Assembly: GCA_017694885.1 (NCBI GenBank)
Contig: JADIMH010000006.1
Location: 62,001 to 126,000, forward strand
Source of the DNA: Candidatus Cryptobacteroides faecipullorum
Lineage (GTDB): Bacteria > Bacteroidota > Bacteroidia > Bacteroidales > UBA932
Direction of reading: 5' to 3'
DNA length: 64,000 nt
Of this stretch, positions 16,862-25,240 are shown piece after piece. The notes below the pieces were generated by a model that worked only from the letters and a program-made list of their open reading frames with translations, was not told the DNA's origin and ran no database searches. The translations under genes and the position numbers were made by a program. Positions within the stretch are counted from its first letter, which is position 1, and the number at the start of each line of letters is the position of its first letter.

Positions 16862-17854
16862 ATGGAGAGCGTAAACATTAAAGAACTTAATGACCGCATT
16901 CAGAAGGAAAGTTCATTTGTCGACCTCCTCACGATGGAGATGGGGAAAGTGATTGTGGGACAGAAGTCTCTGGTCGAGAACCTTCTTATCGGGCTTCTTG
17001 CGAACGGACATATCCTTCTCGAAGGTGTTCCGGGACTTGCAAAGACATTGGCCATAAACACATTGGCTTCAGCCGTAGACGCGAAGTTCAGCCGTATCCA
17101 GTTTACTCCGGACCTGCTTCCTGCCGATGTTATCGGTACTCTGATATACTCTCAGAAGAGCGAGCAGTTCCAGATAAGGAAAGGTCCGATCTTCGCGAAT
17201 TTCGTACTTGCCGATGAGATCAACCGTTCCCCGGCCAAAGTGCAGTCCGCACTTCTCGAGGCCATGCAGGAAAGACAGGTGACAATCGGCGACGAGACCT
17301 TCAAGCTTCCCGAGCCGTTTCTGGTAATGGCTACCCAGAACCCTATAGAGCAGGAGGGTACCTATCCTCTTCCAGAGGCCCAGGTCGACCGTTTTATGCT
17401 GAAGGTGGTCGTGGGCTACCCTAAAAAGGAGGAGGAAAAGCTGATTGTCAGAATGAACAATACCGGGGAGTTCCCTAAGGCGAACCCGATCCTCAAGCCG
17501 GAGGATATCATCCGTGCAAGGCAGGTGGTTCGCGATGTCTATATGGACGAGAAGATCGAGAGGTATATAGTGGATATAGTATATGCCACCAGGACTCCTC
17601 AGGATTATAGTCTTGGAAAACTTTCGAATCTTATCTCCTACGGGGCGTCTCCTCGTGCAAGCATTTCCCTTTCAATGGCATCCAAGGCCTATGCGTTCAT
17701 AAAAAGGAGAGGTTACGTGATACCTGAGGACGTGAGGGCCGTCTGCAATGAGGTGCTCCGCCACAGGATCGGCCTGACTTACGAGGCTGAAGCCGAGAAT
17801 GTAACGACCGAGAATATCATAGCTGAAATAATCAATGCGGTAGAGGTTCCATAA
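16862..17854 (+). CDS. moxR: MoxR-family AAA+ ATPase
   Basis: 330 aa. Walker A is GVPGLAKT and Walker B VLADEINRSP; LLEAMQERQVTIG and MATQNPIEQEGTYPLPEAQ are the MoxR signatures. A C-terminal lid domain follows (YIVDIVYATRTP). MoxR ATPases act as chaperones for VWA-domain partners, and here two VWA proteins are encoded a few genes downstream. Its stop overlaps the DUF58 start by one base. It is the first gene of the seven-gene aerotolerance-type operon. Confidence 0.92.
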   Translation: MESVNIKELNDRIQKESSFVDLLTMEMGKVIVGQKSLVENLLIGLLANGHILLEGVPGLAKTLAINTLASAVDAKFSRIQFTPDLLPADVIGTLIYSQKSEQFQIRKGPIFANFVLADEINRSPAKVQSALLEAMQERQVTIGDETFKLPEPFLVMATQNPIEQEGTYPLPEAQVDRFMLKVVVGYPKKEEEKLIVRMNNTGEFPKANPILKPEDIIRARQVVRDVYMDEKIERYIVDIVYATRTPQDYSLGKLSNLISYGASPRASISLSMASKAYAFIKRRGYVIPEDVRAVCNEVLRHRIGLTYEAEAENVTTENIIAEIINAVEVP

Positions 17855-18772: not shown

Positions 18773-19801
18773 ATGAAGATATTTGCTTGTTTGCCGGCTG
18801 TGTTGTTGGGCCTGGCTTCCTTTGCGGCCTATGCGGACGGAACCGAGGGGCGGGACATACGCCCCGGTACGGTTACCGGACTTGAAGGGTCGTTCCTTCT
18901 GCCCTTGCAGGAAAGGGATTCCGTCCTGATAGCGGACCAGCTCAGATACGGCTTCCGTCTTGAGGATGTGAAGGAAGGTACGGGATTCGCGTTCCCTGAT
19001 TATTCGAAAGGGTTCAGGGACAGCGTCGAGGTGGTTTCCCCATGGAAACTGGATACCCTGGATTTCAGAAAAGGCAGGAAAGGGGAGCCCGGTGTCTTTA
19101 CTCTCGAAGGAAGCATAGTCATAACGTCGTTTGACGAGGGCAGGTATCCCCTTCCTCCGATCTCTCTTCTCCGGCAGGGAACGGACGGGAGCATAGACAC
19201 CCTGGTGTTCAATGCCCGGACTCTGGAAGTGAAGACGATACCGGTAGACACGGCTACTTTTGAACTGCATGACATAAAAGGGCAGATACGTTATCCTGTG
19301 ACCTTTAAAGAGATTCTTCCTTATCTTGCGGCAGGGATAGCCGGAGCCGCCCTTATCGCCCTTGTCGTGTACCTGATAATAAAAAGGCGCAGGAAAGGCC
19401 TTCAGGGACTGCTTCATAAAGAGCCGGCCCATATCGTCGCTCTCAGAAAGCTCGACCATCTGCGCGGCAGCAAGCTCTGGGCTCCGGAAAAGCAGAAGCA
19501 GTTCTATTCCGGAGTTACCGATGCCCTGCGTGAATACATCGTTTCCCGTTATGGCGTATCGGCGATGGAAATGACTACCAAGGAGATATTTGACGGACTT
19601 TCGGGAAAGGACATCCCGGCAGATCTGTATGACGAGGCCAAGTCCCTGTTTGAACGTGCCGATTTCGTGAAGTTCGCCAAGTATGTCGCTACCGATGAAG
19701 AAAATTCCTCTGCGGTGCCTGTCGCAGTCCGGTTCGTGACGCAGACCTACCAGAGTGAAATAGATACAGAAAGCAAAGAGGAAGAAGCGGAAAGCAAATA
19801 A
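18773..19801 (+). CDS. Membrane-anchored accessory protein of the bat operon
   Basis: 342 aa. It has a signal peptide (MKIFACLPAVLLGLASFAAYA), a periplasmic beta-rich domain of about 160 residues that resembles one unit of BatD (DTLVFNARTLEVKTIPVDT), one membrane helix (ILPYLAAGIAGAALIALVVYLI) followed by RRRRK-type positive charges, and a cytoplasmic helical domain (LREYIVSRYGVSAMEMTTKEIFDGL) similar to the C-terminal part of BatD proteins. It occupies the position of a commonly unnamed gene between DUF58 and batA in Bacteroidales. Its role is unknown; the topology suggests it links periplasmic and cytoplasmic parts of the complex. Confidence 0.6.
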   Translation: MKIFACLPAVLLGLASFAAYADGTEGRDIRPGTVTGLEGSFLLPLQERDSVLIADQLRYGFRLEDVKEGTGFAFPDYSKGFRDSVEVVSPWKLDTLDFRKGRKGEPGVFTLEGSIVITSFDEGRYPLPPISLLRQGTDGSIDTLVFNARTLEVKTIPVDTATFELHDIKGQIRYPVTFKEILPYLAAGIAGAALIALVVYLIIKRRRKGLQGLLHKEPAHIVALRKLDHLRGSKLWAPEKQKQFYSGVTDALREYIVSRYGVSAMEMTTKEIFDGLSGKDIPADLYDEAKSLFERADFVKFAKYVATDEENSSAVPVAVRFVTQTYQSEIDTESKEEEAESK

Positions 19802-19812
19802 GTTGATGGAAT

Positions 19813-20799
19813 ATGTACTTTGAATATCCGAAATTACTTTTTCTTGAGATAATACCGGTATTGCTTATATTGCATTACCTATATATAGAGCTGGCCGGCA
19901 GAAGACCGCATCTGAGGGTGTCGGTCTCTGCTCCGTGGAAGCTTTCCGGAGGGTCTGTCTTCGGCTGGCTGCGGCATTTCCCGTTCGTACTGAGGATTTT
20001 TGCGCTTTCCATGATAATCGTAGCGATTGCAAGACCCCGTTCATCGGAGGCAATGGAGAGAATAGATACCGAAGGCATAGACATAATGCTTGCGATGGAT
20101 GTTTCTACCAGTATGCTGGCCAGGGATTTCAAGCCGGACCGTATCAGTGCGGCCAAGGACATAGCCATAGAGTTCATTTCCCAGAGGCCATCGGACAGGA
20201 TAGGCATAGCGGTCTTTGCCGGCGAAAGTTATACGCAGTGTCCGCTCACTACTGACAGGTCCACTCTTATCAACCTTATGAAAGAGGTTCAGACAGACCT
20301 TATAGAAGACGGTACGGCCATAGGCAACGGACTTGCTACAGCGGTAGCGAGGCTTAAGGACTCCAATGCCAAAAGCCGCGTCGTGATCCTGCTTACGGAC
20401 GGAGTGAACAACCGCGGAGAGATTACTCCCCAGACTGCGGCCGAGATAGCCAAGACGTATGGGGTGAGAGTATATACCATAGGCGTGGGGGCAATGGGCA
20501 CTGCCCCTTATCCGGTCATGACCCCTTGGGGCGTGGATGTCCAGAATGTGAAGGTGGAGATAGATGAAGACCTGCTTTCTGAAATAGCGGAGATGACAGG
20601 AGGACGTTATTTCAGAGCTACCGACAACACCAAACTTATGGAAATATACAGTGAGATCAACAAGATGGAGAAGGATCGTACTACCATCGACAGTTTTCCT
20701 GTCTATAAGGAACTTTTCGGAAGATACGCTCTCGCAGCCCTTATTGCCCTTATGCTTGAGCTGATATTCAAGTTGTTTGTTATCAGAAGGCTGCCATAA
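19813..20799 (+). CDS. batA: BatA, VWA-domain membrane protein
   Basis: 328 aa. An N-terminal membrane segment (YFEYPKLLFLEIIPVLLILHYLY), a second one (FPFVLRIFALSMIIVAIARP), then a VWA domain with the MIDAS motif LAMDVSTSMLARD, TTDRSTLI and VILLTDGVNNRGE, and a C-terminal helix (YALAALIALMLELIFKLFVI). BatA is part of the Bacteroides aerotolerance system, where loss affects survival in oxygen; the molecular role is unsettled. It lies 11 nt after the accessory gene and ends 16 nt before batB. Confidence 0.9.
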   Translation: MYFEYPKLLFLEIIPVLLILHYLYIELAGRRPHLRVSVSAPWKLSGGSVFGWLRHFPFVLRIFALSMIIVAIARPRSSEAMERIDTEGIDIMLAMDVSTSMLARDFKPDRISAAKDIAIEFISQRPSDRIGIAVFAGESYTQCPLTTDRSTLINLMKEVQTDLIEDGTAIGNGLATAVARLKDSNAKSRVVILLTDGVNNRGEITPQTAAEIAKTYGVRVYTIGVGAMGTAPYPVMTPWGVDVQNVKVEIDEDLLSEIAEMTGGRYFRATDNTKLMEIYSEINKMEKDRTTIDSFPVYKELFGRYALAALIALMLELIFKLFVIRRLP

Positions 20800-20815: not shown

Positions 20816-21817
20816 ATGATCAATTTTGCACAGGCACAATACCTTTTTCTGATTCTGCTGATCCCGTTTTTCTTTGTCGCTTATGCCCTTTTGCTGCATA
20901 TGAAAAAGAAAAAGATCCGCAAGCTGGGCGACCCTGTCCTGATATCCGCACTGATGCCTTCCGTTTCCCGCCCGAAAGGATGGTGGAGGCTGGTCATGTT
21001 TTCTATCGGATTCTTTTTCTTCGCAATAGGCATGTCGAGACCGCAGATCGGGGCGAAACTGAAAGAGCACAGGACGGAAGGGGTAGAGATAATGATTGCT
21101 TTGGACGTATCGAATTCCATGCTTGCAGAAGATTATTCCCCGGACAGGCTCGACAGGGCGAAACTGGCTATATCCAGACTTGTCGACAGGCTCAGGGATG
21201 ACCGTATCGGGCTGATAGTCTTTGCCGGAAGTTCATTCGTCCAGCTTCCTATCACGACAGACTACGTTTCCGCAAAGATGTTCCTGAATTCGATTTCGAC
21301 CGAATCGGTGCCGATCCAGGGAACTGCGATGGGAGACGCCATCAATACCGCCATAAGGAGTTTCAGCGCCCAAAGCGAGAAAAGCAGGGCCATAATAGTC
21401 ATTACCGATGGAGAAAACCATGAGGATGATCCGGTCGCTGCCGCAAAGCAGGCTTTCGATATGGGGATAAGGGTATATACCATAGGCGTGGGGTCTCCGG
21501 AGGGCGAGCCGATCCCGATGGAAGGAGGACTTCTCAAGGACAAGGATGGAAACATCGTGGTGACGAAACTTGATGAAAAGACCCTCCGGGAAATAGCCAA
21601 TGCCGGCGGCGGAGTCTATGTCAAGGCCGGGAACAGCGAGTTCGGCCTGAATCCCATTGTCGACAGCATAAAGAAGATGGACGAAGAGCAATTCAGTTCC
21701 GTGGTGTTCGAGGAGTTCGATGAACAGTATATGTATTTCTTCGCTATCGCACTTGTATTCTTCATAATAGAGATGCTGATAGGAGAAAGGAGGTCCAAAA
21801 GGCATTTGTTCAATTAA
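20816..21817 (+). CDS. batB: BatB, VWA-domain membrane protein
   Basis: 333 aa from the ATG at 20816, which has a good GGAGGA site 7 nt upstream; the ORF-track start at 20777 lies inside batA. The architecture repeats BatA: MINFAQAQYLFLILLIPFFF, a second helix, and a VWA domain with ALDVSNSMLAED, ITTDYVSA and VITDGENHEDD. The C-terminal helix (YFFAIALVFFIIEMLIG) is followed by a basic tail. BatA and BatB are paralogues and probably form a hetero-complex acted on by MoxR. Confidence 0.9.
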   Translation: MINFAQAQYLFLILLIPFFFVAYALLLHMKKKKIRKLGDPVLISALMPSVSRPKGWWRLVMFSIGFFFFAIGMSRPQIGAKLKEHRTEGVEIMIALDVSNSMLAEDYSPDRLDRAKLAISRLVDRLRDDRIGLIVFAGSSFVQLPITTDYVSAKMFLNSISTESVPIQGTAMGDAINTAIRSFSAQSEKSRAIIVITDGENHEDDPVAAAKQAFDMGIRVYTIGVGSPEGEPIPMEGGLLKDKDGNIVVTKLDEKTLREIANAGGGVYVKAGNSEFGLNPIVDSIKKMDEEQFSSVVFEEFDEQYMYFFAIALVFFIIEMLIGERRSKRHLFN

Positions 21818-21832
21818 AAACGACTGGCGATT

Positions 21833-22591
21833 ATGACTGCATCAATCAGATATATTTTTTTAACGGCTGTCTTTTCAGTCATTGCTTGTGTATATGCATC
21901 CGCCCAGAATCCGGACCGCAGGGACGTGCGGAGGGGGAACCGTGATTTCAAGAAAGAGGATTATAAGGCGGCCGAGATAGACTACCGCAAGGCGCTCGTA
22001 AAGGATTCGGCTTCATTTGCGGCCGGCTACAATCTCGGAAATACACTCTACAGGATGGGGGACAATGAGCAGGCCGGAAAAATCTATGACAAACTGCAGG
22101 AAACGGCTCAGACCTCACCATATGCAGCCGATTATTATTACAATGTAGGAAATGTAACGGCAGGAGCCGAGAACTGGCAGTCTGCAGTGGATGCCTACAG
22201 GCTCGCTCTTTTGAAGAATCCTTCGGATATGGATGCCAAGGAGAATTACATTTACGCAAAGAAGAAGCTGGAAGACCAGCAGAATCAGCAGAATCAACAG
22301 AACCAGCAGAACCAGGATAATCAGGACAAAGATAAAGATCAGAACCAGGATAATCAGGATCAGGACCGGAATGAAGATCAAAATCAGAATCAGAATCAGA
22401 ATGACCGGAACAACGATGATCAGAACCGTAATTCCCAGGATCAGCAGCAGGGCCAGCAGCCGAAGATAACCCCTCAGGCTGCCCAGCAGATGCTCCAGGC
22501 AATACAGGCCAAGGAGAAAGAGACCCAGGATAAGGTGAATAAAGAGAAGGCGCAGATCCTCAAATCAAGACAGAAAGAGAAGAATTGGTAA
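21833..22591 (+). CDS. batC: BatC, periplasmic TPR protein with Gln/Asn/Asp-rich tail
   Basis: 252 aa. Signal peptide (IFLTAVFSVIACVYASA), then two to three TPR repeats (FAAGYNLGNTLYRMGDNEQAGKIYDKL, YYYNVGNVTAGAENWQSAVDAYRLAL), then about 60 residues of almost pure Q/N/D with some K/R, and a final helix (AAQQMLQAIQAKEKETQDKV). The TPRs presumably bind other Bat proteins; the hydrophilic tract is typical of BatC. It lies 15 nt after batB and 12 nt before batD. Confidence 0.88.
   Translation: MTASIRYIFLTAVFSVIACVYASAQNPDRRDVRRGNRDFKKEDYKAAEIDYRKALVKDSASFAAGYNLGNTLYRMGDNEQAGKIYDKLQETAQTSPYAADYYYNVGNVTAGAENWQSAVDAYRLALLKNPSDMDAKENYIYAKKKLEDQQNQQNQQNQQNQDNQDKDKDQNQDNQDQDRNEDQNQNQNQNDRNNDDQNRNSQDQQQGQQPKITPQAAQQMLQAIQAKEKETQDKVNKEKAQILKSRQKEKNW
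22272..22445 (+). repeat. CAGAAYCAG-type codon repeat inside batC
   Basis: A degenerate tandem array of CAG/AAT/CAA/AAC/GAT codons (for example CAGAATCAGCAGAATCAAC) encodes the Q/N/D tract of BatC. It is a possible site of length variation between strains by slippage. Confidence 0.7.
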
Positions 22592-22603: not shown

Positions 22604-25240
22604 ATGAGAAGGCTGATAGCTATATTGTTACCTGTATTTTTCGCGGCAGTGTCCCTTTCCGCCCAGACTTCAATGAGGGTGGAGGCTCCGAATGTGGTGG
22701 CTGCAGACGAGCAGTTCAATGTCACATTCATTCTTGAAGGAGACGATTCTCCTTCGGATTTCCAGTGGAGTCAGGGAGATGATTTCCAGCTTGTGTGGGG
22801 ACCGCAGGAAGGGCGTTCGACAAGCGTACAGATCATCAACGGCAAAAAGTCCAGGTCATCGCAGTTCACTTACACTTATATCCTGATGCCTAAGAAGACA
22901 GGTACGTTTACCCTTCCGAGGGCGACTGCCAAGGTCAAAGGCAAGGAAATAACTTCATCGGGAGTGACGATAGAGGTTGTCTCTGATTCATCGTCCGGTT
23001 CCGGAAACGGCAGCCGGCCGGCTTCTTCCGCAGGAGGGGCTTCTTCCGACAATGTGACAGGAATCCAGGATGAGGACATTTTTCTCCGTCTGACCCTGAG
23101 CAGGACGAAAGTAGTGGTCGGAGAACCCATTACGGCTACGCTCAAGCTTTACCAGCGGGTCAACATAGCAGGATTCGAAGATGCAAGATTCCCGTCTTTC
23201 AACGGTTTCTGGAGCCAGGAGGTCGAAGCTCCGACAAATATCGAATTCAGACGTGAAAGCTACGACAACAAGATCTACAACACTGCCGTTCTCAGAAAAT
23301 ATGTTCTGATCCCGCAGCAGACGGGTACCATCACCATTGATCCGGCGGAGCTTGTCTGCCTGGTCAACATACGGGTTTCCTCAGGAGGAGGGGTAAGCAT
23401 ATTCGACGGCTTTTTCGATGAATACAGGACTATCCGCAAGAGGGTGTCGTCTTCTTCATACAAGGTCAATGTTTCGCCTCTTCCGGCCGGAGCTCCGGCA
23501 TCATTCGGCGGCGGAGTGGGTGATTTCTCCATCTCGGCAAGGATGAGCAAGGATTCCCTGACCACCCATGAGGCTTCTTCTCTGGTGGTGACCATTACCG
23601 GAAAAGGAAACGTATCCCTTCTTGAAGCGCCGGATGTCGTTTTTCCTCCGGATTTCGAGGTTTATGACACGAAGTCGTCCGAGAATACATCAAAGCCGTC
23701 GGGCGGGACTTCCGGCAGCAAGGTATATGAATTCCCGTTCATACCGAGAAGTCACGGAGATTTTACGATCGGTCCTATAGAATATTCCTACTACGACATA
23801 AATGCCGGAAAGTACGTGACACTTTCCACAGACCCGATAAGGCTGCATGTGAAGAAAGGCAAGGTCCAGGATCAGGATACGGGCGGAAGCATTGCAGCGC
23901 TTCCTTCAGTAAACCGTCAGGGTGTAAAGAGCCTTGGAGAAGATGTCAGATATATCCATACCAAGCTTCCTGTCCTTTCTTCCAAGGGTGACTTTTTCGT
24001 AAGCTCTTCTTTGTTCCGGATACTGGCCGTTGCCATACTGCTTGCAGGCGCTTTGTTATGGGCTGTTCTTGCAAGAGCGGCGGCAAGAAGGGCGGACATA
24101 GCCGGTACCAAGACCAGAAGGGCGACAAAGATGGCGATGAAACGCCTCAAGTCGGCCGAGAACTATCTGAACCAGAATCTTTATTCCGCATTCTATGAAG
24201 AACTCCACAAGGCGATTGTAGGTTTCATTTCAGACAAGCTGAACATGTCGGCGGCAGACTTCTCCAAGGAGAAGATTTCCAGCACGCTCGTTTCAGGTGG
24301 AGTCGACAGCACGCTGGCGGATTCCCTCATAGAGGTGATCGATGCCTGCGAATTCGCACGCTATTCGCCTGATGCCGGGCATGAGGCGATGAAAAAACAT
24401 TATCAGCAGGCATTGGATGTCATATCATCAATAGACTCAAGCATGAAAAACAGGAAAAGCCATAAGGCTGCGGGAGGAGCGGCCGTCGCCGTCATACTCA
24501 TGATGTCGCTGCCGTCCGTTTCACAGGCGGCCAATGACAGCTATGTCGATTCGCTCTGGACGAGCGCCGGTCAGTCCTATGCTGCCGGAAACTGGGAGAA
24601 TGCGCTTTCGGTGTATGCCTCGATCGACAAGTTGGGACTCGAGTCCCCGTATCTGTACTGCAATATCGGAAATTCATATTTCAAGCTGGCGGATTATCCG
24701 CATGCAATACTGTATTATGAAAGGGCGCTGAAACTTGACCCGTCATGTTCGGATGCAAGATACAATCTGCATATAGCGTCGGGACTTGTCCAGGACAAGA
24801 TCGACCCCGTTCCCGAATTCCTTCTTAAAAGCTGGACCAGGTCCATATGCTATATTCTGGATTCCGATGCATGGGCATGGCTGTCTTTGGCATTCTTGGC
24901 GGTTACAGTGGCCATGGTGCTGCTGTTCATCCTGTCCGGGACTTCCGCTGCGAGAAAGACCGGATTTTCTCTGGCAATAGTATTCTTCCTGCTTGCGGCA
25001 TCCTCATTCTCTTTTTCCATATGGCAGAAAAATGACTATATGAGGGCGGACGGAGCCATAGTCATGTCGCCTGTCACTTCAGTCAAGAGTTCTCCGTCAG
25101 AAGAGGTGTCCAAGGACCTGTTCATACTTCATGAGGGTACGAAGGTGACCATCCTCGATGCCGTAGGGGACTGGAGGAATATCGAACTTGCCGACGGCCG
25201 TCAGGGGTGGATACATACGGAGGATATCGAAGTGATTTGA
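22604..25240 (+). CDS. batD: BatD-BatE fusion protein
   Basis: 878 aa, one frame. Residues 1-613 are BatD: signal peptide (IAILLPVFFAAVSLSAQ), repeated beta-domains (EDIFLRLTLSRTKVVVGEPI, YVLIPQQTGTITIDP), a membrane helix near 470 (FRILAVAILLAGALLWAVLA) and a cytoplasmic helical part. Residues 614-878 are BatE: a second signal-like start MKNRKSHK + hydrophobic AAVAVILMMSLPSVSQA, TPR repeats (YLYCNIGNSYFKLADYPHAI), two membrane helices and an SH3-like end (EGTKVTILDAVGDWRNIEL). In most Bacteroidales these are two genes. The ATG at 24443 could still start a separate BatE. It ends the operon; nnrD converges 18 nt later. Confidence 0.85.
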   Translation: MRRLIAILLPVFFAAVSLSAQTSMRVEAPNVVAADEQFNVTFILEGDDSPSDFQWSQGDDFQLVWGPQEGRSTSVQIINGKKSRSSQFTYTYILMPKKTGTFTLPRATAKVKGKEITSSGVTIEVVSDSSSGSGNGSRPASSAGGASSDNVTGIQDEDIFLRLTLSRTKVVVGEPITATLKLYQRVNIAGFEDARFPSFNGFWSQEVEAPTNIEFRRESYDNKIYNTAVLRKYVLIPQQTGTITIDPAELVCLVNIRVSSGGGVSIFDGFFDEYRTIRKRVSSSSYKVNVSPLPAGAPASFGGGVGDFSISARMSKDSLTTHEASSLVVTITGKGNVSLLEAPDVVFPPDFEVYDTKSSENTSKPSGGTSGSKVYEFPFIPRSHGDFTIGPIEYSYYDINAGKYVTLSTDPIRLHVKKGKVQDQDTGGSIAALPSVNRQGVKSLGEDVRYIHTKLPVLSSKGDFFVSSSLFRILAVAILLAGALLWAVLARAAARRADIAGTKTRRATKMAMKRLKSAENYLNQNLYSAFYEELHKAIVGFISDKLNMSAADFSKEKISSTLVSGGVDSTLADSLIEVIDACEFARYSPDAGHEAMKKHYQQALDVISSIDSSMKNRKSHKAAGGAAVAVILMMSLPSVSQAANDSYVDSLWTSAGQSYAAGNWENALSVYASIDKLGLESPYLYCNIGNSYFKLADYPHAILYYERALKLDPSCSDARYNLHIASGLVQDKIDPVPEFLLKSWTRSICYILDSDAWAWLSLAFLAVTVAMVLLFILSGTSAARKTGFSLAIVFFLLAASSFSFSIWQKNDYMRADGAIVMSPVTSVKSSPSEEVSKDLFILHEGTKVTILDAVGDWRNIELADGRQGWIHTEDIEVI

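Follow-up and report, generated by a model that had tools for sequence, protein, structure and literature searches.

Comparative evidence for a batE start codon retained inside a fused batD-batE reading frame of Cryptobacteroides

Results

The fused frame and its operon

The window analysed here is a stretch of 64,000 nucleotides from Candidatus Cryptobacteroides faecipullorum (contig JADIMH010000006.1, positions 62,001 to 126,000). A Bat (Bacteroides aerotolerance) operon on its plus strand comprises moxR, a DUF58 gene, a signal-peptide-bearing gene, batA, batB and batC, and ends with a single open frame of 878 codons at 22604-25240 (+), in which BatD comes first and BatE second. The features of the operon and of the fused frame are listed below, with the evidence for each in parentheses.

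16862..17854, plus strand: moxR, AAA ATPase (Pfam)
19813..20799, plus strand: batA, vWA (Pfam)
20816..21817, plus strand: batB, vWA (Pfam)
21833..22591, plus strand: batC, TPR, the upstream neighbour of the fusion (Pfam)
22604..25240, plus strand: batD-batE fused reading frame, 878 aa (open frame; BatD, TPR and SH3 matches; fused in nearly all same-genus genomes)
22604..22666, plus strand: putative N-terminal signal peptide of BatD, residues 1-21, ending SLSAQ (sequence; of one class with the BatD signal peptides on which the classifier was trained)
22685..23863, plus strand: predicted periplasmic Ig-like (DUF11-like) domains of BatD, about residues 28-420 (PF13584 in three stretches; beta strands in the structure model)
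24008..24076, plus strand: predicted membrane helix of BatD, about residues 469-491 (hydropathy; model helix 469-523)
24077..24448, plus strand: predicted cytosolic helical domain of BatD (model helices 527-615; conserved ISSIDSSMK tail)
24443..25240, plus strand: batE nested in the frame, 265 aa, with TPR, two membrane helices and an SH3-like domain (Pfam; model helices 754-777 and 781-813)

Pfam matches in the fused protein covered BatD (residues 28-125, in three stretches), TPR (683-715) and SH3_3 (826-875). The BatD match (PF13584) scored 159.5 bits over its three stretches against a curated cut-off of 24.1, and TPR_1 in the BatE part scored 37.8 bits against a cut-off of 27.8; the SH3_3 match at the C-terminal end of BatE was sub-threshold (23.1 bits, cut-off 27). 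The second part was recognized as BatE by its export signal, TPR, membrane helices and C-terminal SH3-like region, and by separate homologues that sit after batD in relatives. In the predicted structure the final BatD helix runs up to the Met614/Lys615 junction and stops at residue 615. When the full model was compared with solved structures, only weak Ig-like and adhesin matches came back, at TM-scores of about 0.1, too low to be informative.

Two further proteins were observed. Between the DUF58 gene and batA, positions 18773-19801 encode the signal-peptide-bearing protein, which has no Pfam match and is conserved in 68 related loci. Elsewhere in the same genome a second BatD-domain protein (L003, G000:C45:1410-4688) occupies an open frame of 970 aa, combining a BatD-like N-terminal domain with a C-terminal rhomboid-like membrane region.

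Distribution and age of the fusion

The earlier note, made from the window sequence alone, had placed BatD and BatE in one frame with no stop between them, and this was borne out by the 878 open codons and by the same frame in relatives. The fused protein was matched in 99 of 101 genomes of the same genus, nearly all in one frame, contig ends aside. A query spanning the junction was matched in 387 of 400 genomes and, among the matches listed, each was an open frame without a stop. Since these 99 of 101 and 387 of 400 relatives match, the fused frame is no assembly artefact. A search of relatives for a batD stop, proposed in that note as a check, found close relatives to be fused and outgroups mostly to have separate genes: in the rest of the family and order, batD mostly ends in a stop, and batE begins from a few to about 50 nt further on or overlaps it. 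With a single frame in relatives and separate genes in outgroups, the locus was classed as a gene fusion.

A phylogeny was built from 113 proteins with the junction columns left out. Nearly all fused genes fell in one clade spanning six genera, and further separate fusions were found in genus g12 and in L191, from another family; L143 was left out of the fusion count because an ambiguous base fills its junction. As reconstructed from this tree, the fusion is old and arose at least two more times separately in Bacteroidales. In ATG-bearing genomes the two genes would be separated once more by a stop right before Met614. Many codons there could become a stop by a single change (70 of 148 genomes at codon -2), yet among the sampled genomes a stop is seen there only in L078; this rarity favours, without proving, retention of the joined form.

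Stops were seen in two otherwise fused genes, L119 (G211), with a TAG inside BatD, and L078 (G061), with a TAA at the junction and with none of the usual starts after it. Either error or decay may account for them.

The junction start codon and its initiation signature

The features proposed at the junction are the following.

24443..24445, plus strand: ATG of Met614, proposed internal BatE start (ATG in 118 of 148 genomes; signature tied to the start codon)
24422..24457, plus strand: initiation-like stretch, codons -7 to +4 around the ATG (excess of AT-rich synonymous codons; weak mRNA folding)
24443..24532, plus strand: putative internal signal peptide MKNRKSHKAAGGAAVAVILMMSLPSVSQAA, residues 614-643 (length, hydropathy and c-region; low-confidence model linker 616-644)

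Residue 614 is encoded by the ATG at 24443-24445, and the sequence from there reads MKNRKSHKAAGGAAVAVILMMSLPSVSQA and then AND. Across 148 distinct Cryptobacteroides fusions, this codon is ATG in 118, GTG in 3 and neither in 27, and four losses of the start codon were counted in the tree. The nearest relatives with separate genes (for example L176) have the codons for IES, followed by TGA, gt and ATG; the query reads ATA GAC TCA AGC ATG, its ATG standing one codon past the corresponding Ser. By this comparison of junction DNA, the inner ATG and the site of the old batE start are 2-5 nt apart at most, so that the earlier claim of a signal lying exactly where BatE begins in genomes with separate genes holds to within about 2-5 nt of the start in the nearest separate relatives. 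Where relatives have a longer BatD, the column of Met614 is occupied by BatD's own C-terminal Leu, Ile, Val or Phe. Met614 may be the old batE start or its replacement.

To measure the initiation signature, the AT content expected for the encoded amino acid under the codon usage of that gene was subtracted from the observed AT content of each codon, in a 12-codon window. This window was picked after the first profile had been seen; the peak was also obtained with an 8-codon window and in genomes added later. In the 118 ATG-bearing genomes the AT excess was maximal on Met614 (z 1.78, rank 1 of 855 positions, 6.8 SD above the rest) and was positive in 85 of 88 clusters of near relatives, as against -0.32 in the 30 that lack it. 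In genomes that joined the set after the first profile, the values were 1.42 with ATG and -0.10 without, and the value in the present genome was 1.54. The true batD start carries the same signature in both groups. Plain codon identity across genomes gave no peak at the junction; it was the AT measure corrected for codon usage that did.

Among seven conserved Met columns in the fused gene, the signature was found at Met614 only, the others ranging from -0.82 to 0.07, including Met596, which is 99% conserved and followed by KK. For 29 conserved internal Mets in BatX, BatA, BatB and BatC the mean was -0.22 and the maximum 0.88, versus 1.3-2.1 at the true starts there, with which the Met614 peak is on a par. 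The single strong inner peak in BatA coincides with its last codons, which are the batB start region. Met614 was classed as a candidate internal start on this combination of a conserved start codon with a signature above those of other internal Mets.

Along the tree, the signature was present in 97 of 114 sequences with ATG or GTG versus 1 of 18 without. The GTG sequence L094 keeps it, and the adjacent L087 (ATC) is without it; a moderate signature is still there in the start-less L223 and L225 (TTA). A tree-based sign test alone could not reach 0.05 because there are only four independent start losses. Other fused genera were mixed and partly in agreement: in genus g17 the GTG or ATG sequences L111, L112 and L123 were high, and the CTG sequences L109, L110 and L120 low. 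In L123 a strong start-like bias (z about 3.5-3.9) accompanies an ATG four codons further on, which suggests that the inner start can move.

Predicted mRNA folding at the junction ATG was weak, at -4.5 kcal/mol versus -11.3 over gene windows and -8.4 in genomes without the ATG. The junction also folded less than synonymous resamples (z 0.75, versus -0.33 at other internal ATGs). Scored against a training set from the operon loci and the window, the start context was below average, at about the 19th percentile of true starts and the 90th of internal ATGs. An A at -3, a known positive feature, was not enriched in genomes with the ATG over those without, and Shine-Dalgarno-like elements were sought near the junction and not found. 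Bacteroidota starts have no Shine-Dalgarno sequences and rely on adenines and low structure (PMC6847099), and the computed pattern at the junction matches these known starts.

The junction segment and its predicted topology

The junction segment resembles signal peptides more closely than membrane helices. Its apolar run has a median of 17 residues versus 22-26 in membrane helices of the same proteins (17-18 versus 20-26 with the classifier data taken in), and its 19-residue Kyte-Doolittle hydropathy (KD19) is 1.8 versus 2.3-2.8; the corresponding values are 16 residues and 1.76 for BatD signal peptides, and 16 and 1.86 for signal peptides of separate BatE. The length and hydropathy that would mark an uncut membrane helix were thus not seen. 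Strict AxA matching separated signal peptides from membrane helices too poorly, and a classifier was therefore trained on BatD signal peptides versus membrane helices of the same proteins. The share assigned to the signal peptide class was 86% for segments with the ATG, 70% for those without it and 91% for separate BatE, and 9 of the 30 no-ATG sequences were helix-like. Signal-peptide-like h- and c-regions were present, with a proposed cut site after SQA (residue 642) or SQAA, and most fused sequences, whether or not they have the ATG, still look signal-peptide-like in this segment. The earlier reading of MKNRKSHK and the hydrophobic run after it as a signal peptide is upheld by the segment's length, its hydropathy and the small residues at its predicted cleavage site.

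Long, variable, low-complexity insertions were observed right after the predicted cleavage site in L084, L086, L089, L092 and L029-L034, mostly in the clade whose inner start was lost.

With the membrane side assigned from the BatD helix, the BatD part of the fusion would consist of a signal peptide, periplasmic domains and one membrane helix that leaves its C-terminal helical domain, and hence the junction, cytosolic. The old BatE signal peptide would therefore carry BatE from inside to outside again, and the two BatE helices would pass in and back out, so that TPR and SH3 would end up in the periplasm, just as they do in separate BatE. The change of topology that the earlier note had envisaged was thus not supported, as BatD has a single membrane helix before the junction and the old in-to-out direction is retained. 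In the fusion the old signal peptide may persist as an anchor; alternatively, signal peptidase I may cleave it, a plausible outcome.

Discussion

The explanation favoured here, with a probability of roughly 0.72, is that the locus yields both a fused 878-aa product and free BatE from the internal ATG at 24443. The batD stop would have been lost, and batE brought into frame, in an ancestor shared by six genera of Bacteroidales. Initiation at the batD ATG would then give the BatD-BatE fusion, and initiation at 24443 a free 265-aa BatE that brings a signal peptide of its own. The internal start is strongly supported by comparison of genomes, with the signature present alongside the start codon and absent where that codon was lost, in keeping with the proposal that this ATG is used. 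The batE start appears to have been kept by selection inside the fused frame, and the gene therefore probably makes both the fusion and BatE alone. The earlier note had set a real fusion and use of the ATG against each other; both are favoured, but not as exclusive choices, since the ATG is not preceded by a retained stop and start-less lineages stay fused. It had also named fusions without the ATG as grounds for rejection. These exist in 30 of 148 genomes, but as a group they are without the signature and can therefore serve as natural controls.

In the four lineages without the inner start, the fused frame and most signal-peptide features persist, and BatE would presumably be obtained only as part of the fusion. 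A tentative extension, possible but doubtful, is that free BatE arises by internal start and signal peptidase cleavage together, next to tethered BatD-BatE, with cleavage alone sufficing where the start was lost. If so, the locus would represent a stage of merging at which the second gene's start outlives its independence.

The alternative that survives best, though it is rather unlikely, is a polyprotein, in which the whole fusion is translated and signal peptidase I cuts the internal signal peptide to give separate mature BatD and BatE. Every fused sequence still has signal-peptide features, a permitted -3/-1 pair among them; these mostly persist in no-ATG genomes and are seen in the independent fusions as well; the predicted topology puts the cleavage site in the periplasm, and FbcH of Bradyrhizobium offers a precedent. 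The loose cleavage rule, however, is also passed by 89-95% of membrane helices and so discriminates poorly, and a polyprotein leaves unexplained both the start-like synonymous bias and its loss with the start codon.

It is improbable that the gene makes a single long protein only, with the old signal peptide now an uncut membrane helix and no free BatE. The frame retains no stop between its parts, and the n-region from Met614 to the hydrophobic core is longer and rich in Lys and Arg (11 residues, versus 4 in separate BatE), as would suit a tether. The short hydrophobic run and the assignment of most segments to the signal peptide class speak against it, and the start signature is not accounted for. 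The start-less lineages, with their 9 helix-like sequences among 30, are where such a protein could occur, if uncut.

There is similarly little probability that the AT-rich codons reflect ribosome slowing at a domain boundary, or an internal promoter, and not a start. The idea of slow codons at domain borders is familiar, but the bias tracks the start codon, peaks on it and is gone when the codon is lost though the domain border remains; the promoter element TAnnTTTG was found in 0 of 148 genomes in the 120 nt upstream. Finally, separate genes whose stop was missed through assembly or sequencing error, conceivable for a window from a draft assembly of 72 contigs, are refuted by relatives: the frame is likewise open in nearly all same-genus genomes that match, and five further genera share it.

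On the dual-product explanation, gene callers would list a single protein here and overlook BatE as a separate product. The locus also offers a natural experiment, with one fused gene in hundreds of genomes, most of which keep the inner start, and four losses of that start. Start-site use in Bacteroidota, where Shine-Dalgarno signals are absent, may be readable from synonymous codons alone, and the case suggests how a fused membrane-protein gene can go on supplying a free partner and still keep its topology.

Comparison with known systems

Gene order and domains agree with the Bat operon, MoxR-DUF58-BatA-BatB-BatC-BatD-BatE, and the signal peptide, TPR, two membrane helices and SH3-like domain of a Bacteroides-type BatE are kept. 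The difference is that BatD and BatE share one frame here and are mostly separate elsewhere in the order. FbcH, the cytochrome b/c1 precursor of Bradyrhizobium, likewise has one frame for two membrane proteins and a signal peptide in its interior, and is a single precursor that is cleaved; in the BatD-BatE gene an internal start is indicated in addition.

Fusions of bat genes are on record for batB-batC in Leptospira biflexa, with others in Borrelia burgdorferi, Spirochaeta thermophila and Francisella tularensis (PMC3557215). As described in the part of that report considered here, these resemble the present case in joining adjacent bat genes in one frame; the L. biflexa partners (batB-batC) differ from BatD-BatE, and that part describes neither an internal start nor retention of a signal peptide. 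The literature searches turned up no bat fusion for which an internal start is described. In-frame nested genes with an internal start are known from the SpaO short form (PMC13059759), Cas11b (PMC11899642) and two-polypeptide phage endolysins (PMC9430671). In these cases, and as proposed for this locus, a shorter second product comes from an internal in-frame start and shares the stop codon. The BatD-BatE gene differs from them in that its inner start, for which the evidence is comparative, lies within a few bases of the start of a once-separate gene, and in that the inner product would begin with an export signal. The BatD-BatE case combines two known kinds, bat gene fusions and in-frame nested genes.
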